Assembly (NCBI GenBank): GCA_013298025.1 | Contig: JAAFJE010000005.1 | Coordinates: forward strand, 1 to 64,000 | DNA length: 64,000 nucleotides | Reading direction: 5' to 3' | From: Cytophagales bacterium | GTDB taxonomy: Bacteria; Bacteroidota; Bacteroidia; Cytophagales; Spirosomataceae | In this document: one piece after another, positions 198 to 56,579 of the stretch | Layout: each line of letters opens with the position of its first letter | Position numbering within the stretch: the first letter of the stretch is position 1 | Made by a program: the position numbers and the translations under genes | Notes under the pieces: generated by a model | Told to the model about the DNA's origin: nothing | The model's database searches: none | The model's input: the letters and a program-made list of their open reading frames with translations, nothing else

Positions 198-300
198 AAA
201 TATGATAGAGGTTTGTTGCTTACGCACAAAAAGAAAATATGATAATGGTTTGTTGCTTACGCACAGCTTGTTGGAGATAACTCCAACAAGGGCGAAAAAG
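198..300. repeat. Dispersed repeat modules: tandem K module plus S hairpin
   Basis: Two near-identical copies of a unit containing GTTTGTTGCTTACGCACA sit at 201-228 and 239-266, 38 bp apart. A perfect hairpin follows at 267-290 (stem CTTGTTGGAG, loop ATAA), then the sequence GGCGAAAA. The same unit plus hairpin recurs at 13,999-14,062, and parts recur at 860-1,010 and 13,850-13,890. The block lies directly upstream of the membrane-protein frame at 303. Confidence 0.85.
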
Positions 301-728: not shown

Positions 729-863
729 CTCGCTGTTTCAAGTTTAACAACTTGGAACAATAAATCAAGTGCAGTCTCCGACTGCACCACCAGTACAACC
801 AATAGCAAAGATTGAATATTTTAGTAGGTTCAATTTGAGCAAGGTCGCAGTCGGAGACTGCTT
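729..863 (+). repeat. MITE-like hairpin element, copy A (right end missing)
   Basis: This copy carries the left terminal inverted repeat (CTCGCTGTTTCAAGTTTAAC...), the first GCAGTC hairpin (loop TCC), the conserved central spacer with the phrase AAAGATTGAATATTTTAG, and the second GCAGTC hairpin (loop GGA). It then diverges, so the right terminal repeat is absent. The full-length copies are at 13,674-13,848 and, inverted, at 40,070-40,244. Confidence 0.85.
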
Positions 864-869
864 TCCGCC

Positions 870-893
870 TTCGTTGGAGTTATCTCCAACGAA
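870..893. repeat. S hairpin with inverted loop
   Basis: Perfect 10-bp stem (TTCGTTGGAG) with loop TTAT. The equivalent hairpins at 267-290, 13,863-13,886 and 14,030-14,053 have loop ATAA, the reverse complement. It sits between element copy A and the K module. Confidence 0.8.
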
Positions 894-899
894 ACGAGC

Positions 900-1009
900 G
901 TAAGCAACTCGCCAACGATGAAACAAAAAGAAAATATGATAGAGGTTTGTTGCTTACGCACAAAAACTAAATCTTGCGTAAGCAACAAACCAATAGCATA
1001 TTTTCTTTT
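900..1009. repeat. K module with 35-bp imperfect inverted repeat
   Basis: Arms at 926-960 and 975-1,009 match at 32 of 35 positions as inverted repeats, with a 14-bp spacer. Each arm carries the GTTTGTTGCTTACGCA phrase next to AAAAGAAAATATG. A shorter inverted pair, GTAAGCAAC at 900 and GTTGCTTAC at 949, offers an alternative fold. The same left half occurs at 13,968-14,027. There is no coding potential. Confidence 0.85.
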
Positions 1010-1037
1010 CGCTTCATAAAAGGGCTTGGATAAAACA

Positions 1038-1073
1038 CCAATCGCAGATTTCGGCTAGGAAATCTGCGATTGG
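1038..1073 (-). terminator. Hairpin terminator after the DUF5606 gene
   Basis: Perfect 14-bp stem (CCAATCGCAGATTT) with an 8-nt loop, 26 bp beyond the stop of the leftward DUF5606 gene. In that direction an AT-rich stretch follows. Confidence 0.75.
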
Positions 1074-1098
1074 TAAAGAAACATCCACTTGCTTGCGA

Positions 1099-1527
1099 TT
1101 ATTCGGCAGCAACCGTACTATTGCTTTCAAAAACGCTTGGTAAGTATTGTACCAAGAGGTTGTACCAATTGATGATTTTCTTTACATCGGAAGGATACAC
1201 CCTTGTGCGGTCGAAGTTTGGAGCAACTTCGTTCAAAATGTCGTATAATTCGCTATCAGAAGCAGTTTTAGTATTGATTTCGATGTTTGACGCAAACTTT
1301 TCTTTCAACGCCATCAAAATGTCGCCAAGAGGCACAGAGCTATCTTGGTGGTCGTCCATATATACAGAGATGTCTTTCAATACTGATACTCTTGCATTTG
1401 CTCCTACAACCGAACGCTCTTTTTTGGCATCTAAACTTTCAACAATAACGCCAGTACGAGTAGGTTTTAAGATTCGGTAAAGACCACTTTTTCCTGAGAT
1501 ATTGGCGATTTCTTTGAGTAATTCCAT
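1099..1527 (-). CDS. DUF5606 domain-containing protein
   Basis: A 142-residue soluble protein. The N-terminal start MELLKEIANISGKSGLYR followed by LKPTRTGVIVESL is the hallmark of DUF5606, a Bacteroidota-restricted family of unknown function. The first 60 residues look like a small beta domain; the remainder is helical and acidic and ends with a short tail. It lies downstream of engB on the same strand (88-bp gap), so the two may be cotranscribed, although a promoter-like -7 box lies between them. No catalytic motif is visible. The assignment to the family is firm; the function is not known. Confidence 0.9.
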   Translation of the reverse strand: MELLKEIANISGKSGLYRILKPTRTGVIVESLDAKKERSVVGANARVSVLKDISVYMDDHQDSSVPLGDILMALKEKFASNIEINTKTASDSELYDILNEVAPNFDRTRVYPSDVKKIINWYNLLVQYLPSVFESNSTVAAE

Positions 1528-1555
1528 AATAAATATGTCTTATGATTTGTTTTTG

Positions 1556-1591
1556 CAAAGTTAGCTAAATAAACGGTATCGCTTGGGCAAA
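1556..1591 (-). promoter_or_regulatory. Candidate Bacteroidota-type promoter for the DUF5606 gene
   Basis: Read leftward, a TTTG at 1,591-1,588 is followed by TAACTTTG at 1,563-1,556, matching the Bacteroidota -33 TTTG and -7 TAnnTTTG boxes. The spacing of 24 bp is at the long end. The -7 box is 28 bp from the ATG. Confidence 0.4.
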
Positions 1592-1614
1592 TTTCGCTAA
1601 AATATCATTCAAGG

Positions 1615-2217
1615 CTATACTTGAAAGTCCTGATTGAGCTTTTGAATTTCAGCCAAAATGTCGTTTCTACCTGTCCCGTTAACGGACGAGCTGACAAAAT
1701 ATTGCGGTACTTCATCCCAAGTTTCTTGCATTTTTTCGATATATGCCTCCACATTTTTGCCTACAGCCGTTGGAGAAAGCTTATCGGCTTTGGTAAAGAC
1801 AATGTAAAACGGAATGCCTTTTTCGCCCAAGGTTTCCATAAAGGCGAGGTCTATTTTCTGTGGCTCGTGTCTTACATCAATCAAGACAAACGTGCACACC
1901 AAATTGCTACGCAATGAGAGGTAGTCCATAATCATTTTTTCAAATTTCTCTCGCTCTGTTTTACTCACTTTGGCGTAGCCGTAGCCGGGCAAATCGACCA
2001 AATACCATTGTTGATTGATAGAGAAATGATTGATGAGTTGGGTTTTGCCAGGTACTTGCGACGTTTTCGCCAAGTCTTTCTTTTGTACCAAAGAATTAAT
2101 TAACGATGATTTGCCAACGTTAGAACGCCCAATAAAGGCATACTCAGGTTTATCGGGTTTGGGGCATTTGCTATATTCCGAGTTGCTCATCAGGAATTTT
2201 GCTTCTACTATTTTCAT
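1615..2217 (-). CDS. engB: Ribosome biogenesis GTPase EngB/YihA/YsxC
   Basis: A 200-residue TRAFAC-class GTPase needed for assembly of the large ribosomal subunit. Visible G motifs are G1 GRSNVGKSS at residues 30-38, the switch I region PGKTQLIN around 56-63, G3 DLPG at 75-78 and G4 TKAD at 142-145. The length matches the family (about 200). The ATG start is immediately upstream of the conserved KIVEAKFLMS beginning. Its 3' neighbour on the same strand is DUF5606. Confidence 0.97.
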   Translation of the reverse strand: MKIVEAKFLMSNSEYSKCPKPDKPEYAFIGRSNVGKSSLINSLVQKKDLAKTSQVPGKTQLINHFSINQQWYLVDLPGYGYAKVSKTEREKFEKMIMDYLSLRSNLVCTFVLIDVRHEPQKIDLAFMETLGEKGIPFYIVFTKADKLSPTAVGKNVEAYIEKMQETWDEVPQYFVSSSVNGTGRNDILAEIQKLNQDFQV

Positions 2218-2653
2218 CGTTTGTGTATTTTTTAGTAAATATCTAGGACTTAATGCCCTGAATATTCGATATTCGTAATATTTAATGAAGAATGTAATGA
2301 ATATTTATTGGCAAGTTTTGGTATTGCAATGCAAATTTACATAACTTTATAACATATCCGTTCTAAGGGCTGGGCTTAGGCTTATTTTATATGAAACACT
2401 TGTAAAAGACCTGCCATCAACAACGGTCTGAACAGCTTTTTAAAATAAAGTTCTATTGCTTTCTTTCTTAAAATAATACAATTATTCACAACAAAGCCTA
2501 CAGGATTATTCTCCGCCATTCATTATTTTTATGATAAAAGGGCTATCGAAGAAAAAAAGAAAGTGTTGAGCGAAAATTCGATTGTACCTACAACAGTGAA
2601 GAATTAACATTTGTATTTATTTATAACCCATAAAAAACTGAAATTTTCTAACC
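2218..2653. other. Intergenic region without a gene
   Basis: 436 bp between the divergent engB and the repeat-protein gene. The sequence is AT-rich with no convincing frame, hairpin or repeat. It presumably holds both promoters, but I could not place a clear -33/-7 pair. Confidence 0.5.
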
Positions 2654-4870
2654 ATGAAAGAAAATTACTCCCCGCTGTTGTTCTTAACGGCTGCTATAAC
2701 ATTGGGTTCGTCGAGTGTATTTGCTCAAAATGACCTACCTCCGAATGCCGTCAATGGTAAATGTTATGCCAAATGTCTAAAGCCCGCACAATTTACTACT
2801 AAAAATCAGCAATTTGTTGCCAAAGAATCAGGAAAACTCCTCAACGTTGTGCCTGCGGTATTGGGTGCAGGTTCTAAAACGATAGTTGTAAAAGAAGCTG
2901 CTAAAAAACTCGACGTAGTACCGGCTGCTTATAAAACTGTTACAGAGCAAATCTTGGCGAAAGAAGCAGGAAAAACAGTTTCGGTCATTCCGGCGGTGTA
3001 TAAAACCGAATCGGAAACCATTTTGGTAAAAGAAGCTTCTAAAAAGCTAGAGGTTGTACCTGCTCAGTACAAAACCCTTACCGAAAAAATCTTTGTAGGC
3101 GGATGCCCTACAGGTTCTTATATGGCAGGAACTTGGGACAATGCCAAGCGTGCTTTCGTCAAAGCCGATGGTGCTGTAGTAACGGGTTCGCCGTGTAAAA
3201 AATTAGAGGTTGTACCAGCCGTATTGAAAACCGAAACCGAACAATACGTAGCCAAAGCAGCGTCTAAAACTTATACAATTGTACCTGCGGTGTATAAAAC
3301 CGTAACCGAACAATACACCGTAAAGCCTGCTTATACTCGTATAGAGGTTTTACCAGCCGAGTTCAAAACTGTAACCGAACAAGTATTGGTAAAAGAAGCA
3401 TCGAAAGTACTATCGGTGATTCCAGCTACTTTCAAAAAAGTAACAGAAAAAAGATTAGTAAAAGAAGCATCGAAGGTATTAACACCTAATGCTTTTACTT
3501 ACAAAACCGTTACAGAACAAATTTTGGTCAAAGAAGCAACCAAGAAATTAGAGGTTGTGCCAGCGGCTTATAAAACCGTTACCGAACAAGTATTGATTAA
3601 AGATGCGGTAAAAACCTTGGTGACAACGCCACCAGTGTATGAAACTATCACTGAAAAGGTAAAAATCAGAGATGAATATACCAAATACGAGCGTGGTAAA
3701 GCCGATCCTTCTTGTCTTTCTGCCAATCCCGAAGATTGTAGAATTTTGTGTTTGGTGACTGTTCCTGCTGAATATAAAGTTATTACCAAACAAGTAGTGA
3801 AAATCCCAGCAGGCGTAAAAGAGGTAGTTACACCAGCCCAATACACAACAGTTACACGTCAAATTTTAGCATCGCCAGCTACGGTAAAAGAAACGGTGAT
3901 TCCTGCCGAATACAAAACCGTAACGAAACAATTGTTGGTTGCACCAGCTACATTGGCTTCTGCTAAAGATATTGTAGCCGAATACGAAACGTATGAAAAA
4001 GAGGTGGTTGACCAACCTGCCAAAGTGGTAGAAAAAGAAATTCCTGCCGAGTACAAAACTATCTCGAAAGTGGTATTCACTAAGCAAGCTACTTCTCGTA
4101 TCACAGACATCCCTGCCGAATATGCTAGTGTATCGAAACAAGTGCTTGTAAAAGACGCTGAGGTAAAAGAACAAGTGATTCCAGCAGTGTATGCTTCTCG
4201 CACAAAACAAACGGTAGTTTCGCCAGCTAAAACGGTTGAAGTAGATGCCCCAACGCCTTGCGTAGCACCGGGTACAGTAGCTAGTGCCGAATACGCCAAT
4301 GCTAAATTGCCTGCGGGCCAAAGTTGCTATCAGGTTTATACCAAAGAGGTGGTAGCTGCTCCTGCTACAACCCGTGAAATAGTTGTACCAGCCGTGTATG
4401 CTACTCGTACTAAACAAGTATTGGTTTCGCCTGCTACAACCAAAGTAACCGATGTGCCTGCTCAGTACGCTACTATCACGAAGCAATTGTTGGCTTCTGG
4501 TCCTAAAACTACAGAAACTGAAATCCCATCAGAATCGAAAGCGATTGCTCAAACGCTTGTAACAACACCAGCGAAAACAACCGAAAAAATAATTCCTGCG
4601 GAGTATGGCAATTATACTACTACAGTAAAAGTTTCGGATGAAACGTATTCCGACTGGGTAGAGATTCTTTGTGGCGATAAAATGACCATAAGCAAAGTGG
4701 CTCAAATCCAAAAAGCCTTAAAAGCGAAAGGTTATGACCCCGGTACAGCAAGCGATGTGCTTACGCCAAAAACAAGAGCGGCTTTACTCAAATTCCAAAA
4801 AGATAACAACTTGCCACAAGGTAACGTCAATATCGAAACATTGAAAGCGTTGGGTATCAGCGAAAACTAA
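2654..4870 (+). CDS. Secreted repeat protein with C-terminal peptidoglycan-binding domain
   Basis: A 738-residue protein with a Sec signal peptide (residues 1-24, ending SSVFAQ). The body consists of about 23 copies of a short unit of roughly 20-26 residues, pattern KEASKKLEVVPAxYKTVTEQ, in which the VPAxYKTV core is constant and the linker varies. Three cysteine-bearing insertions interrupt the array (near residues 150-182, 340-375 and 530-565). The last 60 residues form a PG_binding_1 domain (VAQIQKALKAKGYDPG..LTPKTRAALLKFQKDNNLP). This suggests a periplasmic protein that holds on to murein and extends a fibrous or beta-solenoid-like stalk. Similar VPAxYKT repeats occur in uncharacterised bacterial proteins; the function is unknown. 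It is monocistronic, with a strong terminator downstream. Confidence 0.85.
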   Translation: MKENYSPLLFLTAAITLGSSSVFAQNDLPPNAVNGKCYAKCLKPAQFTTKNQQFVAKESGKLLNVVPAVLGAGSKTIVVKEAAKKLDVVPAAYKTVTEQILAKEAGKTVSVIPAVYKTESETILVKEASKKLEVVPAQYKTLTEKIFVGGCPTGSYMAGTWDNAKRAFVKADGAVVTGSPCKKLEVVPAVLKTETEQYVAKAASKTYTIVPAVYKTVTEQYTVKPAYTRIEVLPAEFKTVTEQVLVKEASKVLSVIPATFKKVTEKRLVKEASKVLTPNAFTYKTVTEQILVKEATKKLEVVPAAYKTVTEQVLIKDAVKTLVTTPPVYETITEKVKIRDEYTKYERGKADPSCLSANPEDCRILCLVTVPAEYKVITKQVVKIPAGVKEVVTPAQYTTVTRQILASPATVKETVIPAEYKTVTKQLLVAPATLASAKDIVAEYETYEKEVVDQPAKVVEKEIPAEYKTISKVVFTKQATSRITDIPAEYASVSKQVLVKDAEVKEQVIPAVYASRTKQTVVSPAKTVEVDAPTPCVAPGTVASAEYANAKLPAGQSCYQVYTKEVVAAPATTREIVVPAVYATRTKQVLVSPATTKVTDVPAQYATITKQLLASGPKTTETEIPSESKAIAQTLVTTPAKTTEKIIPAEYGNYTTTVKVSDETYSDWVEILCGDKMTISKVAQIQKALKAKGYDPGTASDVLTPKTRAALLKFQKDNNLPQGNVNIETLKALGISEN

Positions 4871-4935
4871 GAGCAAACCTAGCGGTGATTGCACAGTGTA
4901 TCATCCTAAAGTCTTGTGTTTATGATACTTCATTC

Positions 4936-4969
4936 AAAAATACTACTCAGCCCACTGAGTAGTATTTTT
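4936..4969. terminator. Rho-independent terminator after the repeat-protein gene
   Basis: Perfect 15-bp stem (AAAAATACTACTCAG), loop CCCA, ending in a T-run. Its position argues against starting the next gene at the in-frame ATG at 4,916, because the hairpin would then be inside the coding region. Confidence 0.9.
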
Positions 4970-4987
4970 GTTTTACCTGTATGCACT

Positions 4988-5407
4988 ATGAAAAAAATGT
5001 TATTGATAGGGCTTTTTTGCACATCGTTGTCAAGCAAAACAGCGGCCCAACAAATACTGGCTGCTGCTTTTTATGACTATAGTTTCGAGGTTTTGTTGAA
5101 ACAAGCAACAAAACAACATAAGCCTATTTTACTATTTTTCACGGCCAATTGGTGTCAGCCTTGTCAACAACTGAAGGCAAGTTCTTTTTCAAACGAAACC
5201 GTGGCTTCTGTCATAAGCCTTAAATATATGGCAAAAATGGTTGATGTAGAACAATTTGTCGGAATGGACATCGCCGACTTGCACCAAGTTCGACAATACC
5301 CCACTATACTGCTGCTCAACAAAGAAGGGAAAGAAATCTTGCGTTTGAAGGGATATTATCCGCCCAGTTATCTCTTGAAGGTATTACTAGACAATCAGAC
5401 TAAATAA
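4988..5407 (+). CDS. Periplasmic thioredoxin-fold protein
   Basis: 139 residues from the ATG at 4,988, giving a normal signal peptide (MKKMLLIGLFCTSLSSKTAAQ). The longer frame from 4,916 would run through the upstream terminator and is rejected. The active-site motif WCQPC is at residues 55-59, and the cis-proline context YPTILLLNKEGKE is present. The fold resembles thioredoxin-like DUF255/TlpA-type proteins that reduce disulfides or act as chaperones outside the cytoplasm. The substrate is unknown. Confidence 0.85.
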   Translation: MKKMLLIGLFCTSLSSKTAAQQILAAAFYDYSFEVLLKQATKQHKPILLFFTANWCQPCQQLKASSFSNETVASVISLKYMAKMVDVEQFVGMDIADLHQVRQYPTILLLNKEGKEILRLKGYYPPSYLLKVLLDNQTK

Positions 5408-5587
5408 GTCTATTCGGATGAAATGAGTGCTACCGAATAATAATGATACCTAGCTTTCAGTAGCTTTTGCTCTCTATTTTTTTCAAAATAACATTAATAA
5501 TGATTAAAGAAGTAAAAGAGTGATAAATATATAGAAATACATTGTTATATTTACCAGTCTTAATCTTTTATCAACCTTTACACTTTC

Positions 5588-6793
5588 ATGAAAAAAAAAC
5601 TAATATTTCTCCTATGCTTCTTTTGCCTCAGCACGTATGTTCAAGCCCAACGACTTTACCTTGATGGCTATGTTGTCACCAATGCAGGTGATACCCTCAA
5701 AGGTAAAATTGACAATAAAAATTGGGTTCAAACACCGCAATTGATTCGCTTCTCGTCACCTGCTTTGGGTGAAATAGACTACAAAGTCGATGATATTCAG
5801 GGGTTTGGCATTACAAATGAGGTAGTATTTGTGCGTAAAAAAACGGATTTAGATGTTTCGCCTTATGCCTTGAGTAAATTACTCACAACAGCCGAACGAA
5901 TCATTGTAAAAGACACAACGCTATTGCTTCGCCAGATTGTAAAAGGACGCTTGAGCTTATTTTATACCAAAGATAAGCAAGAAAAAAATCACTATTTTAT
6001 CCAAAAGTTCGATGAGCCAGTAGCCGAATTGGTTGACCACCATTTTCTTAAAACAATTGATGGGCGACAATTCAACGCCCATTGGGATTTGTATAACCAG
6101 CAATTATTGCAATTGTGCCAAGACTGCTCTTTGTATGAAGGAAAAGCTTTTAAGTATTCTTTCGACGAATCAACCCTTACCTCTTTGATTTTGGCATACA
6201 ACCGTTTCTTTGGTGATAATAAGCCCACTATAGCCTCGAAAAAAGAAAAATTTAAAATGAATTTTTGCCTCAAAGCTGGGGTTAGTAGCTATGCTTATCA
6301 GGTTGATAGCTACGATTATTATGCGACTCGTTTTGAAAAATCTGGTTTGATTGCCTACAGTATTGGCGGAGGATTGTTGACAGAATTGCCTTCTTTTCGT
6401 CGTAAGCTTGGTTTTAGCCTTGATGTGTTATATACTGTATATAAAGAAGGCCTTGCACTCAATGCCAACTATTTACCCATGACCAACAAATCTTATTTAG
6501 GGTTGTATCTTACCCCTGCTTATTCGCTCTATAAAAATATTCCCAAACAACTTGATATGTTTGTAGAAGCAGGTGCTTCTATAGAAGTTCCTTTAAATAA
6601 GCTTAATAATAACTTTTTTGAGGAAGGAATGGGGGCTATGTACGGATATACTTTTGGTGTAGGATGTAAAGTGAAAAGGATGAGAGTATCCTTAGATTAT
6701 TATACCAATAATGCAGGTCTGCAAATATTCGTGAAGATTGGAGGAAACATCAATCGTTGGGGACTTAATGTGAGTTATGCGTTAGGGAAATAA
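5588..6793 (+). CDS. Exported outer-membrane beta-barrel-like protein
   Basis: 401 residues with a signal peptide (MKKKLIFLLCFFCLSTYVQAQ). It begins with the motif GYVVTNAGDTLKGKI, typical of a family of Bacteroidota exported proteins that carry this small domain before a PorT-like barrel. The C-terminal half (about 225-401) alternates hydrophobic and polar residues and ends in RWGLNVSYALGK, consistent with an eight-stranded barrel. No enzymatic motif is seen. It is monocistronic, with its own terminator. The molecular role is unknown. Confidence 0.75.
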   Translation: MKKKLIFLLCFFCLSTYVQAQRLYLDGYVVTNAGDTLKGKIDNKNWVQTPQLIRFSSPALGEIDYKVDDIQGFGITNEVVFVRKKTDLDVSPYALSKLLTTAERIIVKDTTLLLRQIVKGRLSLFYTKDKQEKNHYFIQKFDEPVAELVDHHFLKTIDGRQFNAHWDLYNQQLLQLCQDCSLYEGKAFKYSFDESTLTSLILAYNRFFGDNKPTIASKKEKFKMNFCLKAGVSSYAYQVDSYDYYATRFEKSGLIAYSIGGGLLTELPSFRRKLGFSLDVLYTVYKEGLALNANYLPMTNKSYLGLYLTPAYSLYKNIPKQLDMFVEAGASIEVPLNKLNNNFFEEGMGAMYGYTFGVGCKVKRMRVSLDYYTNNAGLQIFVKIGGNINRWGLNVSYALGK

Positions 6794-6832
6794 ATACACG
6801 ATATACCCAAGCCCCTTGGCGGATTAATTCGT

Positions 6833-6880
6833 AAATATGGTGCAAGTACCAGCGTTTTTAGCGATATTTGCACCATATTT
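6833..6880 (+). terminator. Hairpin terminator between the beta-barrel gene and hemE
   Basis: 13-bp perfect stem (AAATATGGTGCAA at 6,833-6,845 pairing with 6,868-6,880), 22-nt loop, followed by a T-rich tail. Confidence 0.75.
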
Positions 6881-6916
6881 TGCTTTATTCCATAATGAAT
6901 AAAGCCTTGGCAAGCA

Positions 6917-7948
6917 ATGGAACATTTACAAAACGATTTATTACTCAGAGCGGCTCGTGGCGAGCAAGTAGAACGTGTACCTGTATGGATGATGCGTCAG
7001 GCTGGTAGAATATTGGCAGAATACCGTGCTGTGCGTGCAAAAGCCGGCAGCTTTATTAAACTGGCTACTACGCCCGAATTGGCCGCCGAAGTGACAATCC
7101 AACCTGTTGACATCCTTGGTGTTGATGCGGCTATTATCTTTTCTGATATATTGGTTGTGCCAGAAGCAATGGGGCTACCTTATATTATGGAAGAAAAAGT
7201 AGGCCCTATTTTTCCTACAACCATTCAATCTATGGCAGATGTAGAACAGTTGCTTGTGCCAGACCCTCACGAAAAATTAGCGTATGTCATAGATGCCATC
7301 AAAATTGTTAAACAAGAACTCAACGGACGTGTGCCTTTGATTGGCTTTGCGGGTGCTCCTTTTACTTTATTATGCTACATGATAGAAGGAAAAGGCTCTA
7401 AAACCTTCTCGAAAGCGAAAAAAGCCTTGTATTCAGAAGAGGTACTTTCTCACGCTTTGCTACAAAAAATTACCGATACCACCATCGCTTACCTCAAAGC
7501 ACAAATTGCGGCTGGGGCCAATATCGTGCAAATCTTCGATTCTTGGGCTGGTATTCTTTCTCCCGAACAATACCGTACTTATTCGTTGCCGTATATTGCA
7601 CAAATTTGTGATGCTATTACAGAAGTACCTGTAACCGTATTTGCGAAAGGTGCTTTCTTCGCAAGGGAAGATATGGGTAAATTGAACTGCGAAACCATTG
7701 GCTTAGATTGGAACATGGACATCGCCGAATCTCGCCGACTCATTGGCAACAGCAAAACACTACAAGGCAACCTAGACCCTTGTGTGCTGTATGCTTCTTA
7801 CGACGAAATCAAAAAGCATACCATTACGATAATTGAGCAGTTTGGTACGCAACGTTATATAGCCAACCTTGGGCATGGCGTGTATCCCGACACAGACCCC
7901 GATAAGGTGAAATGCTTTATTGATACGGTGAAAGGATATGGCTTGTAA
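6917..7948 (+). CDS. hemE: Uroporphyrinogen decarboxylase
   Basis: 343 residues, normal for HemE. The enzyme removes the four acetate carboxyls of uroporphyrinogen III to give coproporphyrinogen III in heme synthesis. The N-terminal signature [11 protein letters not shown] (around residues 21-31) carries the substrate-binding arginines. [16 protein letters not shown], the aspartate-containing [10 protein letters not shown] loop and the C-terminal [11 protein letters not shown] are all intact. It is cytoplasmic and stands alone here without other hem genes. A shared bidirectional terminator follows. Confidence 0.98.
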
Positions 7949-7981
7949 GCTTAACTAGCCGAACGGAGGAACGCCAAAACG

Positions 7982-8035
7982 ATTGATTTCGGAAATACAA
8001 AAAATACCTTGATTTACTGTATTTCCGAAATCAAT
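7982..8035. terminator. Bidirectional terminator between hemE and a convergent gene
   Basis: Perfect 18-bp stem (ATTGATTTCGGAAATACA at 7,982-7,999 with 8,018-8,035). It is placed between two convergent genes. Confidence 0.85.
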
Positions 8036-8075
8036 GCTCTTCAATCTTTCATAGCTTGGTATTCACTTGGGAAGG

Positions 8076-8834
8076 TTATTTATCAAAAATGCTTTCTTGA
8101 AAATCGGCATTGGGTATCACTTTTTCTACTTCAAAAAAGCGTGCTTGTCCAAACATGATTTCTTTGGCTGCTATACTTATCTTAAACGGAAATAGCCAAT
8201 GTTGTACTTTGCGGTAGTCCGAAAAATAAACCTTGCTGTTATACGCTTGTCGCATCCCAAGTACCGATACATCGCCCCACATTTGGGCTAATAAATGCGT
8301 TTGCTTATCAAACCAGTACACCACTTTCGATTTATCCAGCTTCGAGGTCATTTTTACCTGATAAAAAAAGGCATTATCCGCAAACACTTCTCCCGTAAAT
8401 TCTAGTGTATAATCGGCTGACTGATAGTTTTCTAAGCCATAATGTAGCAGTGATTGTTTCAATAAAAACTGACATTCTTCGGGGTCGATGTTATAGGTCG
8501 TAATTTTACCTCCTACAGCCGAAGGAGCGTTTAAGTTCCAACCTTTATTTTGATGCACCGCATACACAAAATGATTAGAGCCATTTTCGAGGATAGATTC
8601 ATGCCGAAGCCCTATTTGCGGTATCAGGTAAATGGTATTGACAAACAGCGTAGTATCAGAAAAGCGATGTGTTCGGATGATTTTTAGGTGATGCAACAGC
8701 TCCCAGTGTTGCTTCCCACCAATGGCATCAAAGTATTGTTCGATGATGGTTTGTGGCGTAATTGCTTGTGCTAAACTTTGGGTATAAAACACCCATAAAA
8801 AAACACTGATGCACAGCTTTGCTTGGTATTTCAT
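8076..8834 (-). CDS. Exported LolA/LppX-like protein of unknown function
   Basis: 252 residues with a signal peptide ending TQSLAQ. The N-terminus TPQTIIEQYFDAIGGKQHW is the usual opening of exported Bacteroidota proteins that share the LolA-like half-barrel (outer-membrane lipoprotein-sorting type). The central part YWFDKQTHLLAQMWGD and PFKISI fit the same fold. It may bind a lipid or another hydrophobic ligand in the periplasm; that is inference from fold resemblance. Single gene, with convergent hemE on the 3' side. Confidence 0.7.
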   Translation of the reverse strand: MKYQAKLCISVFLWVFYTQSLAQAITPQTIIEQYFDAIGGKQHWELLHHLKIIRTHRFSDTTLFVNTIYLIPQIGLRHESILENGSNHFVYAVHQNKGWNLNAPSAVGGKITTYNIDPEECQFLLKQSLLHYGLENYQSADYTLEFTGEVFADNAFFYQVKMTSKLDKSKVVYWFDKQTHLLAQMWGDVSVLGMRQAYNSKVYFSDYRKVQHWLFPFKISIAAKEIMFGQARFFEVEKVIPNADFQESIFDK

Positions 8835-8998
8835 TGTTGAGATGGATGCTTGCGAATTACAGCAAATTTGGTATCAGTTTGCTGCTAGTTGATGACGGAA
8901 TTTGGGTGAAAATCTTTATTTTATCTAAAATTTCTTAGAAAAATTTTAAAAAAGATGAAAGCCGAAATCAACTAGCAGTAAAATGCTTTATATTGATG

Positions 8999-10414
8999 CT
9001 ACACTTCGCAAGGATAGCCGAAAAGGCAGTTGTCTTTGATGATTTTCGCAACCACAGGCGGTACGAAATTTTCCCAGCCATTTTCGCCCGATTGAATCAT
9101 TTTCAAGACATTATCGGTGTGGATGGTTAGCAGCGATTGATTGATGTTTTTAATGTCTTCAAACTTATCGTTATCTTTCATGTATTGGAACAAACCAGCA
9201 AGATGTTTGGGCGGTAAAAACTCTCTTGAAGTCACAATTGTTCCGTCCTTATCAATCATTGGGTGAAGGTAAATCTTGATATTGGGGCCAAACAGCGTAG
9301 CAAAAGCCGCCAAAATACCGCCAGGGAGTTTTTGGTAATGTTTTTCTTCAAAAATATACGCCAAATTGGGCATCCCCATGATAAGTGCCATGCGTTTGTT
9401 CGTAAAGCGACTGAGGTAGGAAACCAATTTGTAATATTCGTGGAAATTAGAAATCAATACGGTTTGTCCAAGCGAACAAAGAATATCCACACGGTCGAGA
9501 AAATCTTTTTCGTTGATTTGCTCGTCGCCTCCTTGTAGGTTTCGTAGGGTTAGTTCCGAAACCACCACCACTTTATCGTCGTCCACATCGGGTTCGTTTT
9601 CAAATTGCATTTGACCTTTTTTCAACATATCTACAAATACGTTTGTCACAGGTCTGAACCGTCCTCTAATAGCCACAATATGCTTTTTGTAGAAAGCTTC
9701 CGAAGGGTTCATTACGTTGCCATCGGGGCCAAACAAAGCGGCGTTGGTGAAGCCATTTTTCACCAAATGCAAAGACATCAGGCGGTTGTCAACCTCGGCA
9801 AAATCGGGACCAGCAAAACGAATCATGTCAATTTCGATACGGTCGGTATGCAGGTCATCCATCAACGACTGAATCAAAATATCGGGCTGTTGGTGGTAAT
9901 AAAAACAACCATACACCAAGTTTACGCCAATCACGCCCAAGGCTTGTTGTTGTAGCACGTTGTCGTTGTCTTTCATCCGCACGTGTACTACTACGTCGTT
10001 GGGCTCAGAGCCTGGGCGAAGCTGAAAACGCATCCCAATCCAGCCGTGAGGGTCGTTGGTTTTTTGGTAGTTGAGGGCTGCAACCGTATCAGCGAAGGCG
10101 AAAAACATCTTTTCAGAAGCCGTTTCTGTCAGACGGACATTCAAGAGCTTGTACTCACGGTTGAGCATTTTCATGAGGCGAGGCTCACACACATAGCGGC
10201 CCGAAGGTTCTTCTCCGTAAATCGCATCAGAGAAAGCCATATCATAAGCCGATATGGTTTTGGCTATTGTGCCAGAAGCACCGCCTGCTTTAAAAAAGTT
10301 GGCGGCAACGTCTTGCCCTGCACCAATTTCTGCAAATGAACCATAAATGCGTCTGTCAAGGTTGATACGCAGTGCCTTTTGCTTCGTGCCTAGATTTTTA
10401 TCGTAAGTAACCAT
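8999..10414 (-). CDS. Large conserved cytoplasmic protein of unknown function
   Basis: 471 residues without a signal peptide. The opening KALRINLDRRIYGSFAEIGAGQDVAANFFKAGGASGTIAKTISAYDM is characteristic of a highly conserved family that databases label inconsistently (TonB-dependent receptor, nicotinate-nucleotide adenylyltransferase). Neither label fits the visible sequence: there is no barrel, no plug and no HxGH motif. The GGASGTIAKT loop looks like a ligand-binding glycine loop, and the C-terminus contains LFGPNIKIYLHPMIDKDG. No obvious operon partner. The function remains open. Confidence 0.85.
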   Translation of the reverse strand: MVTYDKNLGTKQKALRINLDRRIYGSFAEIGAGQDVAANFFKAGGASGTIAKTISAYDMAFSDAIYGEEPSGRYVCEPRLMKMLNREYKLLNVRLTETASEKMFFAFADTVAALNYQKTNDPHGWIGMRFQLRPGSEPNDVVVHVRMKDNDNVLQQQALGVIGVNLVYGCFYYHQQPDILIQSLMDDLHTDRIEIDMIRFAGPDFAEVDNRLMSLHLVKNGFTNAALFGPDGNVMNPSEAFYKKHIVAIRGRFRPVTNVFVDMLKKGQMQFENEPDVDDDKVVVVSELTLRNLQGGDEQINEKDFLDRVDILCSLGQTVLISNFHEYYKLVSYLSRFTNKRMALIMGMPNLAYIFEEKHYQKLPGGILAAFATLFGPNIKIYLHPMIDKDGTIVTSREFLPPKHLAGLFQYMKDNDKFEDIKNINQSLLTIHTDNVLKMIQSGENGWENFVPPVVAKIIKDNCLFGYPCEV

Positions 10415-10588
10415 TTATCGTTTCTATGAATAGTTGGGGGTACATTAGCTAATTCTCCACTAATTTATATAAATAACGCCAATTATTGTATCATTTCTTA
10501 AAAAGATACAATTTTATTTTTGTTTTTCTTAATAAAATTAAACCCTATATTTTTAGTATAATTTTTTATAAAAAAAATGAAAAAAGGC

Positions 10589-11437
10589 TCAGGCTTCTTG
10601 ATGAAACAAGCTTAACCCAGCAATCGGACTTTCGGCGATAATGCCCACACTAGCCCCTTTTTGTTGGGCTACTCGGCGTAAAATATCGGTATAATAAAAG
10701 GCTACTGAGCCAGTAAAATGAATTTTATGGGACGGAAAATCTGGGTATTTACACAAGTATTTATCAAAAAACGCTTCAAACGCCTGAAATATCAATTGAA
10801 AGGCAAAAGGATGCTGACGATTATCGAAAAGAAATTTAGAAAAACCAGCAAAATAACGATTTGGAAAGGGCTTTTGGTAAGCATTTTCTAATACTTCAAG
10901 GCGTTCTTTTGCACCATATCTTTTATCAAATTTTTGACGTAAATCGGCGGGTAGTTCTTTGTGTAAGTAGCTCAAAAGCAATTGTTTGCCTAAATATCCG
11001 CCACTGCCTTCGTCGCCTAGCCAAAAGCCCAAAGGAGACACTTGAAAGCTGATGTTTTCGCCGTCATACAAACACGAGTTCGACCCTGTACCCAAAATAC
11101 CAATAATTCCTTGTTGCCGTCCTGCCAAGGCACGTGCTGCTCCTAGCATATCGCTGTAAACGGCAATCGTTTCGGCATAAGGAAACACCTGTCGAAGTGC
11201 CTGCTCAATGATTGCTCCTTTTTCGGGCGAACTTACGCCTGTGCCATAAAAATGTATTTCGCTGACAACCTGTGGTACAAGATGCGGACACAACTGTTGG
11301 GAGAGTTCGCTTACGATAGAAGGCGTATCTTGGTAGTACGGATTCAGTCCGATGGTTTTGTACGATTGTATTGCTCCCGTAGGAGCAAGGCTACGCCAAT
11401 CGGTTTTAGTAGAGCCACTGTCTGCAATGAGTTTCAT
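10589..11437 (-). CDS. BadF/BadG/BcrA/BcrD-type ATPase, N-acetylglucosamine kinase-like
   Basis: 282 residues with the ASKHA (actin/hexokinase) fold. The phosphate 1 loop is ADSGSTKTDW at residues 4-13. The second phosphate/adenosine segment contains GILGTGSNSC (around 111-120), and GFWLGDEGSGGYLGK (around 134-148) is the signature of eukaryotic-type N-acetylglucosamine kinases and their bacterial relatives. The likely reaction is ATP-dependent phosphorylation of an amino sugar released during cell-wall recycling; the substrate is inferred. The cytochrome b5-like gene lies upstream on the same strand, only 33 bp away. Confidence 0.88.
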   Translation of the reverse strand: MKLIADSGSTKTDWRSLAPTGAIQSYKTIGLNPYYQDTPSIVSELSQQLCPHLVPQVVSEIHFYGTGVSSPEKGAIIEQALRQVFPYAETIAVYSDMLGAARALAGRQQGIIGILGTGSNSCLYDGENISFQVSPLGFWLGDEGSGGYLGKQLLLSYLHKELPADLRQKFDKRYGAKERLEVLENAYQKPFPNRYFAGFSKFLFDNRQHPFAFQLIFQAFEAFFDKYLCKYPDFPSHKIHFTGSVAFYYTDILRRVAQQKGASVGIIAESPIAGLSLFHQEA

Positions 11438-11470
11438 GCGAAAGAATGAATAAAAATTTGGGACTGAACT

Positions 11471-11704
11471 TTAGTCGGCTAAAAGCCCAACAACAGGAAA
11501 TTTCTCAAACACCATCGCCGTATGCGGTGCATGGCGTAGCTCTTGGGTGAGGTCTTGCCCAGCCCAATGCTCGTAATGTTTGCCATTACGCCACAAACGA
11601 GAAGCTTGTACATCATAAATTTTACCTTGATAGGCAACCCATATTTCCGCTCGGTCTTGTCCATTTCTTAGGGCAAGTTGGGCTTTAGTGAACGTTTTAT
11701 CCAT
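11471..11704 (-). CDS. Cytochrome b5-like heme/steroid-binding domain protein
   Basis: 77 residues from the ATG at 11,704, giving MDKTFTKAQLALRNGQDR. An upstream in-frame ATG at 11,755 would add a hydrophobic stretch without family support. It contains the small cytochrome b5-like module: VAYQGKIYDVQASRLWRNGKHYEHWAGQDLT followed by HAPH. The histidines in KHYEHW and RHAPH are candidate heme ligands, as in the short bacterial b5-like proteins. It lies 33 bp upstream of the sugar-kinase gene and is probably cotranscribed with it. The partner reductase is unknown. Confidence 0.82.
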   Translation of the reverse strand: MDKTFTKAQLALRNGQDRAEIWVAYQGKIYDVQASRLWRNGKHYEHWAGQDLTQELRHAPHTAMVFEKFPVVGLLAD

Positions 11705-11988
11705 AAAAATAAGCTTTAACTGGCTGACAATCAAGCACGCTACATTACCTAACAATAAAAAACAAAAATCGGCGTTGAAGTGGCTAGATTATCGTAGGTA
11801 CATTTGTATAGCTAACAATCTTCAAGAAGATTAAGTTTGTTATTGGTAAGATGGGTACAAAGATAAGCAAACACAACAGGGAAGTAATAAGCGAAAACCT
11901 GCTATCAAACAAAGTGTTATGGGCGTATTTTATTTATTCATATTTTTTCTTTATTTTTAACAAAGTTTTTTAAACATTCTAAACAATC

Positions 11989-12453
11989 ATGAAAAAAATA
12001 TTATTCTTTTTGCCTGTGCTACTAGCTTTCGTGGGTGTTTTTACGGCTTGTAAAAGTTCTAGTTCTGAACCTTCGTTAGAAGAAAAGTTGGCTAAAGTCT
12101 GGACAGCCAAAGTCGTAAAAGAAGGCTCTACGGTGGTTTATGACAAATCGGCTACTTCACAGAGTATTCCCGGTTATGCCAATTATAAATTGGATTTGAC
12201 CAGTAAAACCGCAGCTAAATTGACTGAAAAAGACGGTAATACCTTTACAGGGTCGTGGTCGCTTTCGTCAGATAACACTACGCTTACGCTCTCTGGCTTG
12301 ACCAGCGCAGCGGGTGCTCCTACGGGTACATCGGGCACAATTGTGTATAAAATTGTAGGCTCGGCTACAACTTCGGCCGTAACACTCGAAACTGCCACCG
12401 CTTACATCAAAGCCAGCAACACAATTGCTAATTATCAATTAGTTAATCCATAA
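11989..12453 (+). CDS. Small lipoprotein, lipocalin-like
   Basis: 154 residues with a lipoprotein signal peptide (MKKILFFLPVLLAFVGVFTAC), lipobox FTAC with Cys21 as the acylation site, then a serine-rich linker. The rest is threonine- and serine-rich beta-strand sequence (FTGSWSLSSDNTTLTLSGL), as in the lipocalin-like lipoproteins common in this phylum. It is probably anchored in the outer membrane or facing the periplasm. No binding residues can be named. A strong terminator follows. Confidence 0.8.
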   Translation: MKKILFFLPVLLAFVGVFTACKSSSSEPSLEEKLAKVWTAKVVKEGSTVVYDKSATSQSIPGYANYKLDLTSKTAAKLTEKDGNTFTGSWSLSSDNTTLTLSGLTSAAGAPTGTSGTIVYKIVGSATTSAVTLETATAYIKASNTIANYQLVNP

Positions 12454-12490
12454 TATTGTACTTAAACCAAACCTAAATACCTACGCATTG

Positions 12491-12518
12491 GCCACTCTGG
12501 ATAAGAGTGGCTTTTTTT
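12491..12518 (+). terminator. Rho-independent terminator
   Basis: 8-bp GC-rich stem (GCCACTCT), loop GGATA and seven T residues, 37 bp after the lipoprotein stop. Confidence 0.9.
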
Positions 12519-12574
12519 GTGCCTACTTTGTAGAAAGATAGGACAGAAAGATTTATTCTCCGTAAATTTGCCTC

Positions 12575-13600
12575 ATGGAACAAAGAACAGAATTAAGTAC
12601 AATCGGAGAATTTGGACTCATTAATCGTATTGCGGCCAAATTTCCTATCACACAGCCAGAAACCATGAAAGGTATTGGCGACGACGCTGCCGTGATTGAT
12701 GCCAAGGGTAAAAAGGTAGTTGTTTCTACCGATTTGTTGATAGAAGGTGTACATTTCGACTTGATTTACACGCCGCTATTGCATTTGGGCTACAAAGCGG
12801 TGGCGGTCAATGTGTCTGATATTGCGGCTATGAATGCCATTCCCAAACAAATTACGGTGAGTTTGGGGCTGAGTAATCGTTTTTCGGTAGAAGCCATCGA
12901 AGAACTCTACGAAGGAATGCGTTTGGCTTGCGAAGCGTATCAAATAGATTTGATTGGTGGCGATACGTCGTCGTCGAGAAGTGGCTTGGTGATTTCGGTG
13001 ACAGCCTTGGGCTTGGGCGAAGAAGCCACATTGGCGTACCGCAACAAGGCACAAGCCAACGATATTATCTGTGTGACGGGCGACTTAGGTGCGGCGTATT
13101 TGGGGCTACAGGCACTCGAACGAGAAAAGCAAGTGTTTTTGGCTAATCCTGCTATGCAACCAGAATTGCAAGACAAAGATTATGTGGTAGGCCGACAACT
13201 CAAGCCCGAAGCTCGCATGGATATTATCCATGAACTAAACGCCTTGTCTATTGTGCCAACGGCGATGATAGATGTGTCGGACGGCTTGGCATCTGAATTG
13301 TTGCACATTTGTCAACAATCGAATATAGGAGGAGTAATTTTTGAAGATAAAATACCGATTGATGACCAAACTTACCTAACCGCCACAGAAATGAACCTTA
13401 GCCCCATGACGGCGGCCTTGAATGGGGGAGAAGATTATGAGTTGTTGTTTACGGTTCAACAATCGGATTACGAAAAAATCAAAAATATGACAGATGTAAG
13501 TATCATTGGCTATATGACGCACGACGTAGAACTCGCCCATTTGATGATGAAATCTGGCTCTTTGGTCAAACTAACCGCTCCAGGTTATGTGCATTTTTAG
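12575..13600 (+). CDS. thiL: Thiamine-monophosphate kinase
   Basis: 341 residues. ThiL phosphorylates thiamine monophosphate to the active diphosphate. Visible landmarks of the PurM/ThiL fold are STIGEFGLINRI at the start, GIGDDAAVI (ATP/metal loop), STDLLIEGVHF and NVSDIAAMNA (metal-binding aspartates), TGDLGAAYLG and IDVSDGLASEL. Length is normal. No other thi genes are adjacent. The TAG stop is the first triplet of a 51-bp perfect palindrome. Confidence 0.97.
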   Translation: MEQRTELSTIGEFGLINRIAAKFPITQPETMKGIGDDAAVIDAKGKKVVVSTDLLIEGVHFDLIYTPLLHLGYKAVAVNVSDIAAMNAIPKQITVSLGLSNRFSVEAIEELYEGMRLACEAYQIDLIGGDTSSSRSGLVISVTALGLGEEATLAYRNKAQANDIICVTGDLGAAYLGLQALEREKQVFLANPAMQPELQDKDYVVGRQLKPEARMDIIHELNALSIVPTAMIDVSDGLASELLHICQQSNIGGVIFEDKIPIDDQTYLTATEMNLSPMTAALNGGEDYELLFTVQQSDYEKIKNMTDVSIIGYMTHDVELAHLMMKSGSLVKLTAPGYVHF

Positions 13601-13648
13601 TAGTATAACGTCGGGGAGGTTTTAAACCTCCCCGACGTTATACTACTA
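13598..13648. terminator. Perfect 51-bp palindrome overlapping the thiL stop
   Basis: Two 25-base arms are perfect reverse complements around a single central T at 13,623 (core GGAGGTTT-T-AAACCTCC). It begins on the thiL stop codon. In RNA it would form a very stable hairpin and probably acts as a terminator, although there is no long U-run. It also marks the left border of a repeat cluster. Confidence 0.85.
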
Positions 13649-13673
13649 ATTAAGTACGTTTGAAAATCGCACC

Positions 13674-13848
13674 CTCGCTGTTTCAAGTTTAACAACTTGA
13701 AACAATAAATCAAGTGCAGTCGGAGACTGCACCATCAGTACAACCAATGGCAAAGATTGAATATTTTAGTCTGTTCAATTTGAGCAAGGTCGCAGTCGGA
13801 GACTGCTTCTTATTCGGCGTTCCAAGTTGTTAAACTTGAAACAGCGAG
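13674..13848 (+). repeat. MITE-like hairpin element, copy B (complete)
   Basis: 175 bp bounded by imperfect terminal inverted repeats of about 30 bp (CTCGCTGTTTCAAGTTTAAC at the left, its complement ending AAACAGCGAG at the right). Each terminal repeat contains its own small hairpin (CAAGTT, loop TAAC). Inside are two 15-bp hairpins GCAGTCGGAGACTGC flanking a spacer of about 60 bp. It has no coding capacity. It is nearly identical to the copy at 40,070-40,244. Confidence 0.9.
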
Positions 13849-14062
13849 TGGCTTACGCACAGCTTGTTGGAGATAACTCCAACAAGGGCGAAAATTTACT
13901 TTGGCTTGTTGGCGTAAGTGTTTGATTTCCTTTTTGTTCTAAGTTGTTAGACTTGAAACAGCAAGGGGTAAGCAACTCGCCAACTATCAAAAAAAGAAAA
14001 TATGATAGAGGTTTGTTGCTTACGCACAGCTTGTTGGAGATAACTCCAACAAGGGCGAAAAA
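13849..14062. repeat. Repeat cluster: S hairpins, solo T hairpin and K module
   Basis: In order: a GCTTACGCAC tail and S hairpin (13,863-13,886, loop ATAA); a 55-bp unit at 13,914-13,968 that recurs at 16,024-16,080; a K module from 13,968 containing GTTTGTTGCTTACGCAC; a second S hairpin at 14,030-14,053; and the terminal phrase GGCGAAAA. The cluster ends where the priA fragment begins. No gene is present. Confidence 0.85.
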
Positions 14063-14476
14063 GTGCTGATTCAAACCAATAATCCACAACAAAAGCTGTT
14101 GCATCAAATTGCCCAAAACGACTACGAAGGACTCTATCAAAGCGAAATAGAAGAACGGCAAGGCTTTGCGTATCCGCCTTTTACCCGCCTTATTCGCCTT
14201 ACAATCAAGCACACAGAAGAAGCGTTAGCCAACAAAACAGCACAAGCCTTGAGTAATAAATTAGCCGAAAAACTGAGCAAACAGCGAGTGCTAGGCCCAG
14301 AAAAGCCCTTGGTAGAACGCATACGCAACCAATTTATTTATGAGATTTTAATCAAACTAGAAAAAAGTATCAACCTCAAAGGAGCGAAACAATACATTCA
14401 CGAACAAGTAGAAAGCATCGTCACCGATAAGCAGTTTAAAGGAGCAAGTATTATTATTGATGTGGACTGTATGTAG
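14063..14476 (+). pseudogene. priA: 3' fragment of priA (primosomal protein N') cut off by a repeat
   Basis: 137 residues matching only the C-terminal domain of PriA: VLIQTNNPQQKLLHQIAQNDYEGLYQSEIEERQGFAYPPFTRLIRL is the family's diagnostic stretch, followed by LGPEKPLVERIRNQFIYEILIKL near the end. Full PriA is about 800 residues with a helicase domain and zinc-binding cysteines; none of that is present upstream. The frame continues backwards into the hairpin repeat and stops at a TAG at 14,006, so the 5' five-sixths is missing. The only start codon is a GTG at the repeat junction. It is probably a non-functional remnant; a complete priA should exist elsewhere in the genome. Confidence 0.85.
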
Positions 14477-14488
14477 GAAGACGAGCCA

Positions 14489-14529
14489 TCGCTGAGATAA
14501 CTTCAAGTTATCAAACTTGAAATAGCGAG
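14489..14529. repeat. Solo terminal-type hairpin after the priA fragment
   Basis: TCGCTG...TAGCGAGG encloses a stem TTCAAGTT/AACTTGAA with loop ATCA. It resembles a single end of the MITE-like element. The priA fragment therefore has family repeats on both sides. Confidence 0.65.
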
Positions 14530-15374: not shown

Positions 15375-15420
15375 CTCATGCCATGTATCCCATAAGGCTG
15401 ATGATAAGTCATGGCATGAG
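15375..15420. repeat. Hairpin with CTCATGCCATG arms
   Basis: 11-bp perfect inverted repeat (15,375-15,385 and 15,410-15,420) with a 24-nt loop containing CTGATGATAAGTC. The same arm sequence, three times, occurs at 40,290-40,385. It is positioned as a terminator for the upstream gene. Confidence 0.7.
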
Positions 15421-16023: not shown

Positions 16024-16080
16024 GTAAATGTTTGATTTCCCCTTGCCGTTCCAAGTTGTTAGACCTGAAACAGCTAGGGG
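16024..16080. repeat. Solo T-hairpin unit
   Basis: Matches 13,914-13,968: both start GTAA[GA]TGTTTGATTTCC and end in a hairpin around AAGTTGTTAGAC.TGAAACAGC followed by AGGGG. It lies between two convergent genes and could serve as a terminator. Confidence 0.75.
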
Positions 16081-39983: not shown

Positions 39984-40033
39984 CTGTTTTTTCAAGCATC
40001 CGTCGATTGAATCTAAGGAGCAAAACATCGTAT

Positions 40034-40279
40034 GATATAACCTTCCTGCAAGTTGCAGGAGCAAAACCCCTAGCTGTTTCAAGCTTAATAACTTGGAACG
40101 CCGAATAAGAAGCAGTCTCCGACTGCGACCTTGCTCAAAGTGAGCCTACTAAAGTATTCAATCTTTGCTATTGGTTGTACTGGTGGTGCAGTCGGAGACT
40201 GCACTTGATTTATTGTTCCAAGTTGTTAAACTTGAAACAGCGAGAGGATATAACCTTCCTGCGAGTTGCAGTAGCAAAA
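40034..40279 (-). repeat. MITE-like element copy C (inverted) inside a 33-bp direct repeat
   Basis: The element at 40,070-40,244 is 175 bp, complete and inverted relative to copies A and B. It carries the two GCAGTC hairpins (loops in opposite orientation) and both terminal repeats. A 33-bp unit starting GATATAACCTTCCTGC and ending AGCAAAA lies at 40,034-40,066 on the left and 40,247-40,279 on the right, differing at two positions. That is longer than a normal target-site duplication. No coding frame. Confidence 0.88.
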
Positions 40280-40289
40280 TATCTCACTA

Positions 40290-40385
40290 CTCATGGCATG
40301 ACTGATAATCATTTGTGTATCATCAGCACTATTTGATAAGTCATGCCATGAGTTGGCTCATTTAGGCTTTCACTCATGCCATGAC
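40290..40385. repeat. Triple ATGGCATGAC-type inverted/direct repeat
   Basis: CTCATGGCATGAC at 40,290-40,302 is inverted as GTCATGCCATGAG at 40,340-40,352, and the complementary CTCATGCCATGAC follows at 40,373-40,385. The same arm occurs at 15,375-15,420. The rest up to 40,612 holds no gene and no further repeat that I can see. Confidence 0.75.
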
Positions 40386-40612
40386 TAGAACTCATTGCTA
40401 ATTTACTTCTTTTTTAATCCAACCTTCAATCGTGCAGCATAAAATAAACCATAAATTACGGCAAACCCAAAAACTAGCTTCTCATTAATAATCCACAATT
40501 TTGCATTGTTACCTAAGCATTAATGCAGGTATTTTGCCAAAACTTTCGTAAAATAGGGCTGGCAAATAGCAAATAAAACAAAATTGTATTCTAACAATAC
40601 AGCCTAGCACAA

Positions 40613-47915: not shown

Positions 47916-47933
47916 CTCTAAAGTACCTATTTT

Positions 47934-56525: not shown

Positions 56526-56563
56526 ACAAGAAAGGTCGTCATTCCAATGACGACCTTTCTTGT
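56526..56563 (-). terminator. Terminator of the second M1 peptidase gene
   Basis: 18-bp perfect stem (ACAAGAAAGGTCGTCATT), loop CC. Related in sequence to the imperfect hairpin behind the paralogue at 47,893. Confidence 0.92.
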
Positions 56564-56579
56564 CTAAGATAATTATTTT

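Follow-up and report, generated by a model that had tools for sequence, protein, structure and literature searches.

The window analysed here comprises the first 64,000 nt of contig JAAFJE010000005.1 (C45:1-64000) of a Cytophagales bacterium, whose draft genome amounts to 5.44 Mb in 53 contigs and is 99.97% complete. It contains two complete copies (B and C) and one truncated copy (A) of a 175-bp element (Table 1). Very probably, this element is a REPIN, an inverted pair of bipartite repetitive extragenic palindromic (REP) sequences around a 60-bp spacer, which belongs to the gene for a REP-associated tyrosine transposase (RAYT) at C34:11799-12353. The bipartite palindrome is called REP-A here, with a left (alpha) and a right (beta) form.

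An earlier note on this DNA had described the element as similar to a miniature inverted-repeat transposable element (MITE) and as belonging to no family known to its author. The two complete copies are indeed 175 bp long and 92% identical to each other. Copy A is 94% identical to the query over positions 1-135 and has no right end, because at position 135 the sequence passes into a different palindromic repeat, REP-2. The outer hairpin and the GCAGTC hairpin lie where the note had placed them, and in shuffled versions of the window such matches number 0.00-0.02 on average. The terminal inverted repeat of about 30 bp was drawn too short, since in inverted orientation the two halves of the unit match at 77-88% along ~57 nt. 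Two of three solitary hairpins were found again (Table 1) and the third, at 14489-14529, was not recovered by the same scan, which allowed up to 5 mismatches in 28. As claimed, the element is short, non-coding and interspersed, with inverted hairpins at its ends; it is no orphan MITE, as a RAYT is encoded in the genome. Nor is its kind undescribed: it falls among REP/REPIN elements of the type of bacterial interspersed mosaic elements (BIMEs), and 'atypical' structures beside what is probably the same transposase subclass have been reported (Quentin et al., 2018; PMC6006769; this and the other articles are cited from the parts available to us).

From the end inward, each REP-A consists of CT[C/A]GCT, an outer hairpin with a stem of ~10 bp (GTTTCAAGTT-TAAC-AACTTGGAAC), a 12-nt linker and an inner hairpin, GCAGTC-TCC-GACTGC. 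The linker differs between the ends, being of the AATAAATCAAGT type on the left (alpha) and of the GCCGAATAAGAA type on the right (beta), and a weak central hairpin can be read from the sequence of the spacer. Left ends among 37 listed copies are CT[C/A]GCTG, CTCGCTA or CCCGCTG, and intact right ends are mostly CAGC[G/T]AG. The foot of the stem is CGCT or AGCT, and the canonical tags GT[AG]G and CGTC are not present there. The inverted pair and its spacer are conserved as one unit, with a mean column identity of 88% in an alignment of 33 rows. Alpha and beta halves also occur alone and are numerous around the RAYT gene on C34. In copy B, the left inner hairpin (13716-13730) has the loop GGA instead of TCC or a close variant, as if inverted in place.

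A genome search with the 175-bp unit returned 33 copies with 78-100% identity, whose alignments start at query position 1 or 3 and end at 172-175, together with many half units, which excludes that the copies in the window are the only ones. Four copies end at position 135 (window 729, C45:204810, C45:203868 and C16:64732). Genome-wide, the pattern of the outer hairpin is matched 131 times when the strands are taken separately, so that some palindromic sites count twice. Full-length copies are spread over at least 10 contigs, many with unrelated flanks. They are extragenic: none of the 32 copies examined overlaps an open reading frame of at least 150 aa. Among these 32, the 19 with a gene on both sides in the fetched stretch lie between convergent (9) or co-directional (10) genes and never between divergent ones; the other 13 lacked a neighbour within that stretch. 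In a search of 59 genomes of relatives, the source genome included, matches to the unit were confined to the source genome (G000) and two congeners (G001 and G004).

The earlier note had pointed to an IS200/605-like TnpA with the same ends as a possible partner, and such an enzyme was found in the form of a RAYT within a dense repeat cluster. Five Y1 transposase genes were detected in the genome. One of them, C34:11799-12353, encodes a protein of 185 aa in an intact frame, which scores 106 bits against NF047646 (REP-associated tyrosine transposase, RAYT/TnpA-REP; NCBIfam cut-off 80) and 35.5 against Pfam Y1_Tnp (cut-off 23). Three further RAYT-like proteins reach 68-75 against NF047646, below the cut-off, and the fifth gene is an IS200 TnpA (C50:240173). 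Around the C34 gene, 20 REP-A outer hairpins are packed within 2.3 kb (~C34:11107 to 13406), the nearest ~40 nt upstream of the start and ~12 nt downstream of the stop codon. One palindrome on both sides of a RAYT gene, with more copies dispersed in the genome, is the arrangement that defines a REPtron. No REP-A hairpin was found in the fetched surroundings of the three further RAYT-like genes or in 4 kb around the IS200 TnpA. The HUH histidines H60 and H62 and the catalytic Y147 are invariant both in 5 and in 29 aligned proteins, as is an SS motif in the five aligned relatives. A structure was predicted for a Dyadobacter RAYT (L084) that is 68% identical to the C34 protein (predicted local distance difference test score 91.5); for this model, which is of the relative and not of the C34 protein itself, the best match in the PDB is 4er8, the Escherichia coli RAYT with a bound REP hairpin (E 1.1e-8), followed by the ISDra2 and IS608 transposases.

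Five congeneric genomes (G000 to G004) permitted a comparison of three REP families with three RAYTs. RAYT-A occurs only in G000, which has 131 REP-A matches, compared with three in G004, one in G001 and none in G002 and G003. RAYT-B is present in G001, G002 and G004, with 13, 12 and 10 REP-B matches, respectively, and REP-B is absent from G000 and G003. RAYT-C was found in G004, where REP-C has two matches, one on each side of the gene, and two more in G002. G003 lacks a RAYT of this kind as well as REP-A, REP-B and REP-C. The fit between REP families and RAYTs is largely good and imperfect in the way expected of relics.

Next to the RAYTs of the congeneric genomes stand palindromes that differ in sequence and share the layout. 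A wider set of loci was obtained by scanning an alignment of five RAYTs over a collection with one genome per species; the best 80 of 310 relatives were kept and joined with the five first loci to give 85 Bacteroidota RAYT loci. Of their 250-nt flanks, 163 were long enough for analysis. A module was defined as an outer hairpin (stem of at least 8), a linker and an inner hairpin (stem of at least 5), with the outer hairpin distal to the gene. With a linker of 5-16 nt it is found in 69/163 flanks and in 0.9% of shuffled flanks; with a linker of 7-15 nt, in 67/163 flanks compared to 6/413 control windows taken 1-2 kb away at the same loci. Stricter stems (at least 10 and at least 6) leave 38/163 and 3/413. 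The module is present on at least one side of 45 of the 85 loci and on both sides of 24; the remaining 40 do not have it by these criteria, and some of them carry a single outer hairpin only. Stem sequences vary between loci, and among the 69 best modules 52 have a linker of 9-13 nt. In 24 of 67 modules the outer stem is immediately preceded by GCT (position -3), a triplet with a frequency of 1.4% per position in the flanks. The reverse order, with the inner hairpin distal, is also commoner than in shuffles (27/163 flanks in one scan and 21/163 in another), and the order of the hairpins is therefore a tendency rather than a rule.

On a tree of the 85 proteins, presence of the module changes 19 times compared to a mean of 28.4 after shuffling of the labels (0 of 500 shuffles as low), a figure to which near-copies contribute and in which many branches are weakly supported. 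The group of 28 rows that holds the C34 RAYT (support 88) has 24 rows with the module. The apex of the outer hairpin is of the TTAGC type or the TTCC type in a ratio of 17 to 10 upstream and 6 to 17 downstream of the gene (Fisher p = 0.012); as related loci are not independent, this left/right difference is a lead only. A conserved TCC loop of the inner hairpin was considered and rejected, because TGC, TCT, TCC, TGT and others were found.

Since the matching enzyme is a RAYT and not the transposase of an insertion sequence (IS), the 175-bp unit is to be placed with REP/REPIN (BIME-type) elements. This assignment is based on the observed sequences, copy number, physical link to the RAYT gene and pairing between genomes, joined by the predicted fold of a close relative of the enzyme. 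How the C34 RAYT would bind, cleave and move the unit can be outlined by analogy. In a single-stranded region, such as on the lagging strand, the enzyme would bind the folded REPs, and its HUH/tyrosine site would cleave beside the hairpin, at the GCT foot, in analogy with E. coli TnpA-REP (PMC8266576). It would then excise the inverted pair, or copy it, into another single-stranded site without target duplication, as has been proposed for REPINs (Bertels and Rainey, 2011; PMC3116915). Half units and mosaics would be by-products or relics, and the inner hairpin may serve as a second recognition site. As a generalisation that is only a little less likely than not, the Bacteroidota RAYTs of this clade may read a distinct, composite class of REP: a GCT foot is followed by a long outer hairpin, and a short inner hairpin lies one helical turn (9-13 nt) further inward, so that the enzyme or a dimer of it would read two hairpins per end, with left and right REP subtypes differing as in IS200/IS605. 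If so, two-hairpin systems with differing ends would stand midway between REPtrons and true single-strand transposons.

REP-A is not the only REP family of the window. REP-2 (palindrome CTTGTTGGAGTTATCTCCAACAAG) flanks a RAYT-like gene at C12:128856-129332 and REP-3 (palindrome CTCATGGCATGACT) another at C12:59609. As both flank RAYT-like genes of their own and adjoin REP-A in the window, at least three REP families, each with an enzyme of its own, make up the mosaic clusters seen here; three REP-RAYT pairs of one genome have left repeats in the window. The REP-A/REP-2 junction at position 135 recurs in all four places where copies end there (857-900 in the window), so that the chimera itself was multiplied. 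REP-4 is a palindromic tandem repeat of 41 bp, present at 40033-40272 of the window and at L054:2750-2976 (5.5 units) and L054:5445-5723 (6.8 units); no RAYT was found beside it. A fourth RAYT-like gene, on C52, has palindromes on both sides (L065:1280-1310 and 2075-2110, with GTCGGGTTTCCAACCCGAC upstream, as judged by eye), which may represent a fourth REP family. More palindromic families, some with AGTAGGAAAA...TTTCCTACTACTT ends, occur in G004 on C21 (L177:1900-2250) and on further contigs; they share one intergenic site in G003 and G004; G001 and G002 lack them. Directly after a REP-2 palindrome, positions 14059-14480 hold 422 nt from the 3' end of priA, with 97.9% identity to the complete gene at C45:123448. 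The piece appears to be host DNA that was captured or duplicated next to a REP; an inactivated priA was rejected, given the intact gene. Outside the repeats, the window contains two long similar genes ~8.65 kb apart (47917-50270 and 56563-58925), with blocks that are 74-91% identical, and 69-nt direct repeats (2914-3621) within an open reading frame of 738 aa with a weak match to HxsA.

Table 1. Positions of REP-A copies and of other REP families in the 64,000-nt window.
Feature	Position	Strand	Remark
REP-2 palindrome	267..290	.	same repeat flanks RAYT C12:128856-129332
REP-A REPIN copy A, cut at position 135, joined to REP-2	729..863	+	94% identity (positions 1-135); three further sites have this junction
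Left bipartite REP of copy A: outer hairpin 732-759, linker, inner hairpin 771-785	732..785	+	
REP-2 palindrome, joined to copy A	870..893	.	
REP-A REPIN copy B, complete	13674..13848	+	left inner loop in opposite sense to other 32 aligned copies
Left REP (alpha) of copy B: outer hairpin 13677-13704, linker, inner hairpin 13716-13730	13677..13730	+	
Right REP (beta) of copy B: inner hairpin 13792-13806, linker, outer hairpin 13818-13845	13792..13845	-	
REP-2 palindrome	13863..13886	.	
Solitary REP-A outer hairpin	13935..13962	-	2 mismatches
REP-2 palindrome, adjoins duplicated 3' piece of priA	14030..14053	.	
REP-3 palindrome	15375..15420	.	same repeat flanks RAYT C12:59609
Solitary REP-A outer hairpin	16047..16074	-	3 mismatches
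REP-4 unit left of copy C	40033..40059	-	
REP-A REPIN copy C, complete, between two REP-4 units	40070..40244	-	92% identity; flanks described in the text
REP-4 unit right of copy C	40246..40272	-	
REP-3 palindromes beside copy C	40289..40386	.	

Several observations weigh against a REPIN served by the C34 RAYT. Compensatory changes were found in 0/36 predicted pairs within REP-A, because the copies are too alike, and a folding program favours a long-range fold over the local hairpins; the case for the hairpins therefore rests on the comparison between species. No solved structure was matched by sequence (phmmer, E 0.01). G002 has its two REP-C copies and no RAYT-C was found there, and REP-A matches persist in G004 and G001 without the REP-A RAYT. 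Neither excision nor insertion was observed. The only full REP-A copy of G004 lies within a repeat insert of ~340 bp, at a site where G001 and G002 have 22 bp between syntenic flanks of 87-93% identity, a difference that speaks for the REPIN. As this insert also holds pieces of other repeats, it shows the gain of a mosaic rather than of a clean REPIN; at the site G003 carries a different repeat within 87 bp, and the comparison of congeners there gave no clean empty site for REP-A only. Compared with the uninterrupted arrays on C16, copy C breaks a REP-4 array at GGAGCAAAAC/GATATAACC with a loss of ~7 nt and no duplication, which likewise speaks for the REPIN; since it replaces ~7 nt of a REP-4 unit, decay or recombination could also explain its flanks. 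Beside the tRNA next to copy C, REP-A is absent in 4/4 congeners within the 420 nt compared, but synteny ends after the tRNA and the absence proves nothing.

Part of the copy number does come from local or segmental duplication, as in the C34 cluster and in C7:129431-130233 and C16:919-1719, which share flanks. Together with the clustering, the tandem REP-4 arrays and the REP-A/REP-2 chimeras with one and the same junction, this would suit a passive mosaic, in which fragments were amplified by replication slippage and segmental duplication and no active transposition takes place now. Such an origin is nonetheless unlikely in view of the full-length copies on many contigs with unrelated flanks, of a unit conserved while its surroundings differ, and of the intact RAYT frame. 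A true MITE, that is, a non-autonomous derivative of an IS (IS200/IS605, ISL3 or other) whose transposase reads the 30-bp inverted ends, would likewise be short, non-coding and present in many copies with inverted ends. That the half units are found alone, as expected of REPs, and that the enzyme among the repeats is a RAYT and not an IS transposase make this origin very improbable; the sole IS200 TnpA found is without such ends in 4 kb (ISL3 and other DDE transposases were not searched genome-wide). A target-site duplication was apparent neither in the printed copy flanks nor at copy C, no systematic search having been made. It is also very improbable that the hairpins act in RNA, in termination or 3'-end protection, and are spread by recombination with an incidental link to the RAYT, because they border the RAYT gene itself in many species with differing sequences and the same layout, and because REP families follow RAYTs between genomes. 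The position of the copies, 0/19 between divergent and 9 between convergent genes, agrees with such a function, and secondary roles of this kind are known for REPs (Di Nocera et al., 2013; PMC3733652), but no Rfam family was matched, a tRNA being the only hit in the window.

Among the closest known counterparts is TnpA subclass 2.6, which the available part of Quentin et al. (2018; PMC6006769) describes from Bacteroidetes with 'atypical secondary structures', no GT[AG]G and copies elsewhere in the genome. In the table of that article the subclass equals group 5 of Bertels and has the motifs NH[LIV]H, WQ, YIH[QN]NP and SS and a median HUH-Y distance of 82. The C34 protein, likewise from a Bacteroidota host, fits with NHVH, YIHNNP, SS and a HUH-Y distance of ~85, as do its dispersed palindromes without GT[AG]G; its W is followed by R (WR) and not by Q. 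Whereas the structures of the subclass are called 'atypical' and 'weaker' there, those observed here are bipartite, often GCT-tagged and assembled in 175-bp inverted pairs.

The REPINs of Pseudomonas fluorescens SBW25 (Bertels and Rainey, 2011; PMC3116915) resemble the element in the inverted REP doublet with a spacer, the associated RAYT, the solitary REPs as relics and the extragenic location. They differ in that the element has two hairpins per REP and no GTAG, and excision was observed in SBW25 and not here. With the E. coli BIME/TnpA-REP system (PMC8266576; 4er8) it has in common two REP subtypes in inverted pairs and, for a close relative of the RAYT, the predicted fold. The E. coli enzyme binds single-stranded REP, requires the foot tetranucleotide and cuts at CT; this dinucleotide adjoins the hairpin, and the GCT before the REP-A outer hairpin contains CT. 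An E. coli REP is one bulged hairpin with GTAG, whereas REP-A is GCT with two hairpins. The GTAG/CGTC families (Di Nocera et al., 2013; PMC3733652) also form head-to-head dimers and clusters, carry a tag at the stem foot and have spacers that may hold small stem-loops, but neither of their tags stands at the foot of REP-A, and its second hairpin is part of every unit instead of some spacers.

A literature search, with most subscription journals and all supplements outside its scope, gave no prior description of a two-hairpin or GCT-tagged REP; part of the two-hairpin anatomy may already be listed in Table S1 of Quentin et al. (2018; PMC6006769), a supplement outside this comparison. The kind of system is known from subclass 2.6 in the part of that article available, and what is added here is the anatomy of the unit, its spread over the sampled loci with controls, the assembly of the 175-bp REPIN and the pairing of families with enzymes. 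A further gain is a rule for annotating such intergenic repeats, which are abundant and for the most part unannotated, and several repeats of the window are accounted for together. The biochemistry of REPs and RAYTs has been worked out for proteobacterial enzymes with GTAG-tagged single hairpins (PMC8266576, in the part available); for the Bacteroidota class, recognition and mobility become directly testable with a concrete anatomy, 45 loci that bear it and a genus whose REP families appear and disappear together with their RAYTs.

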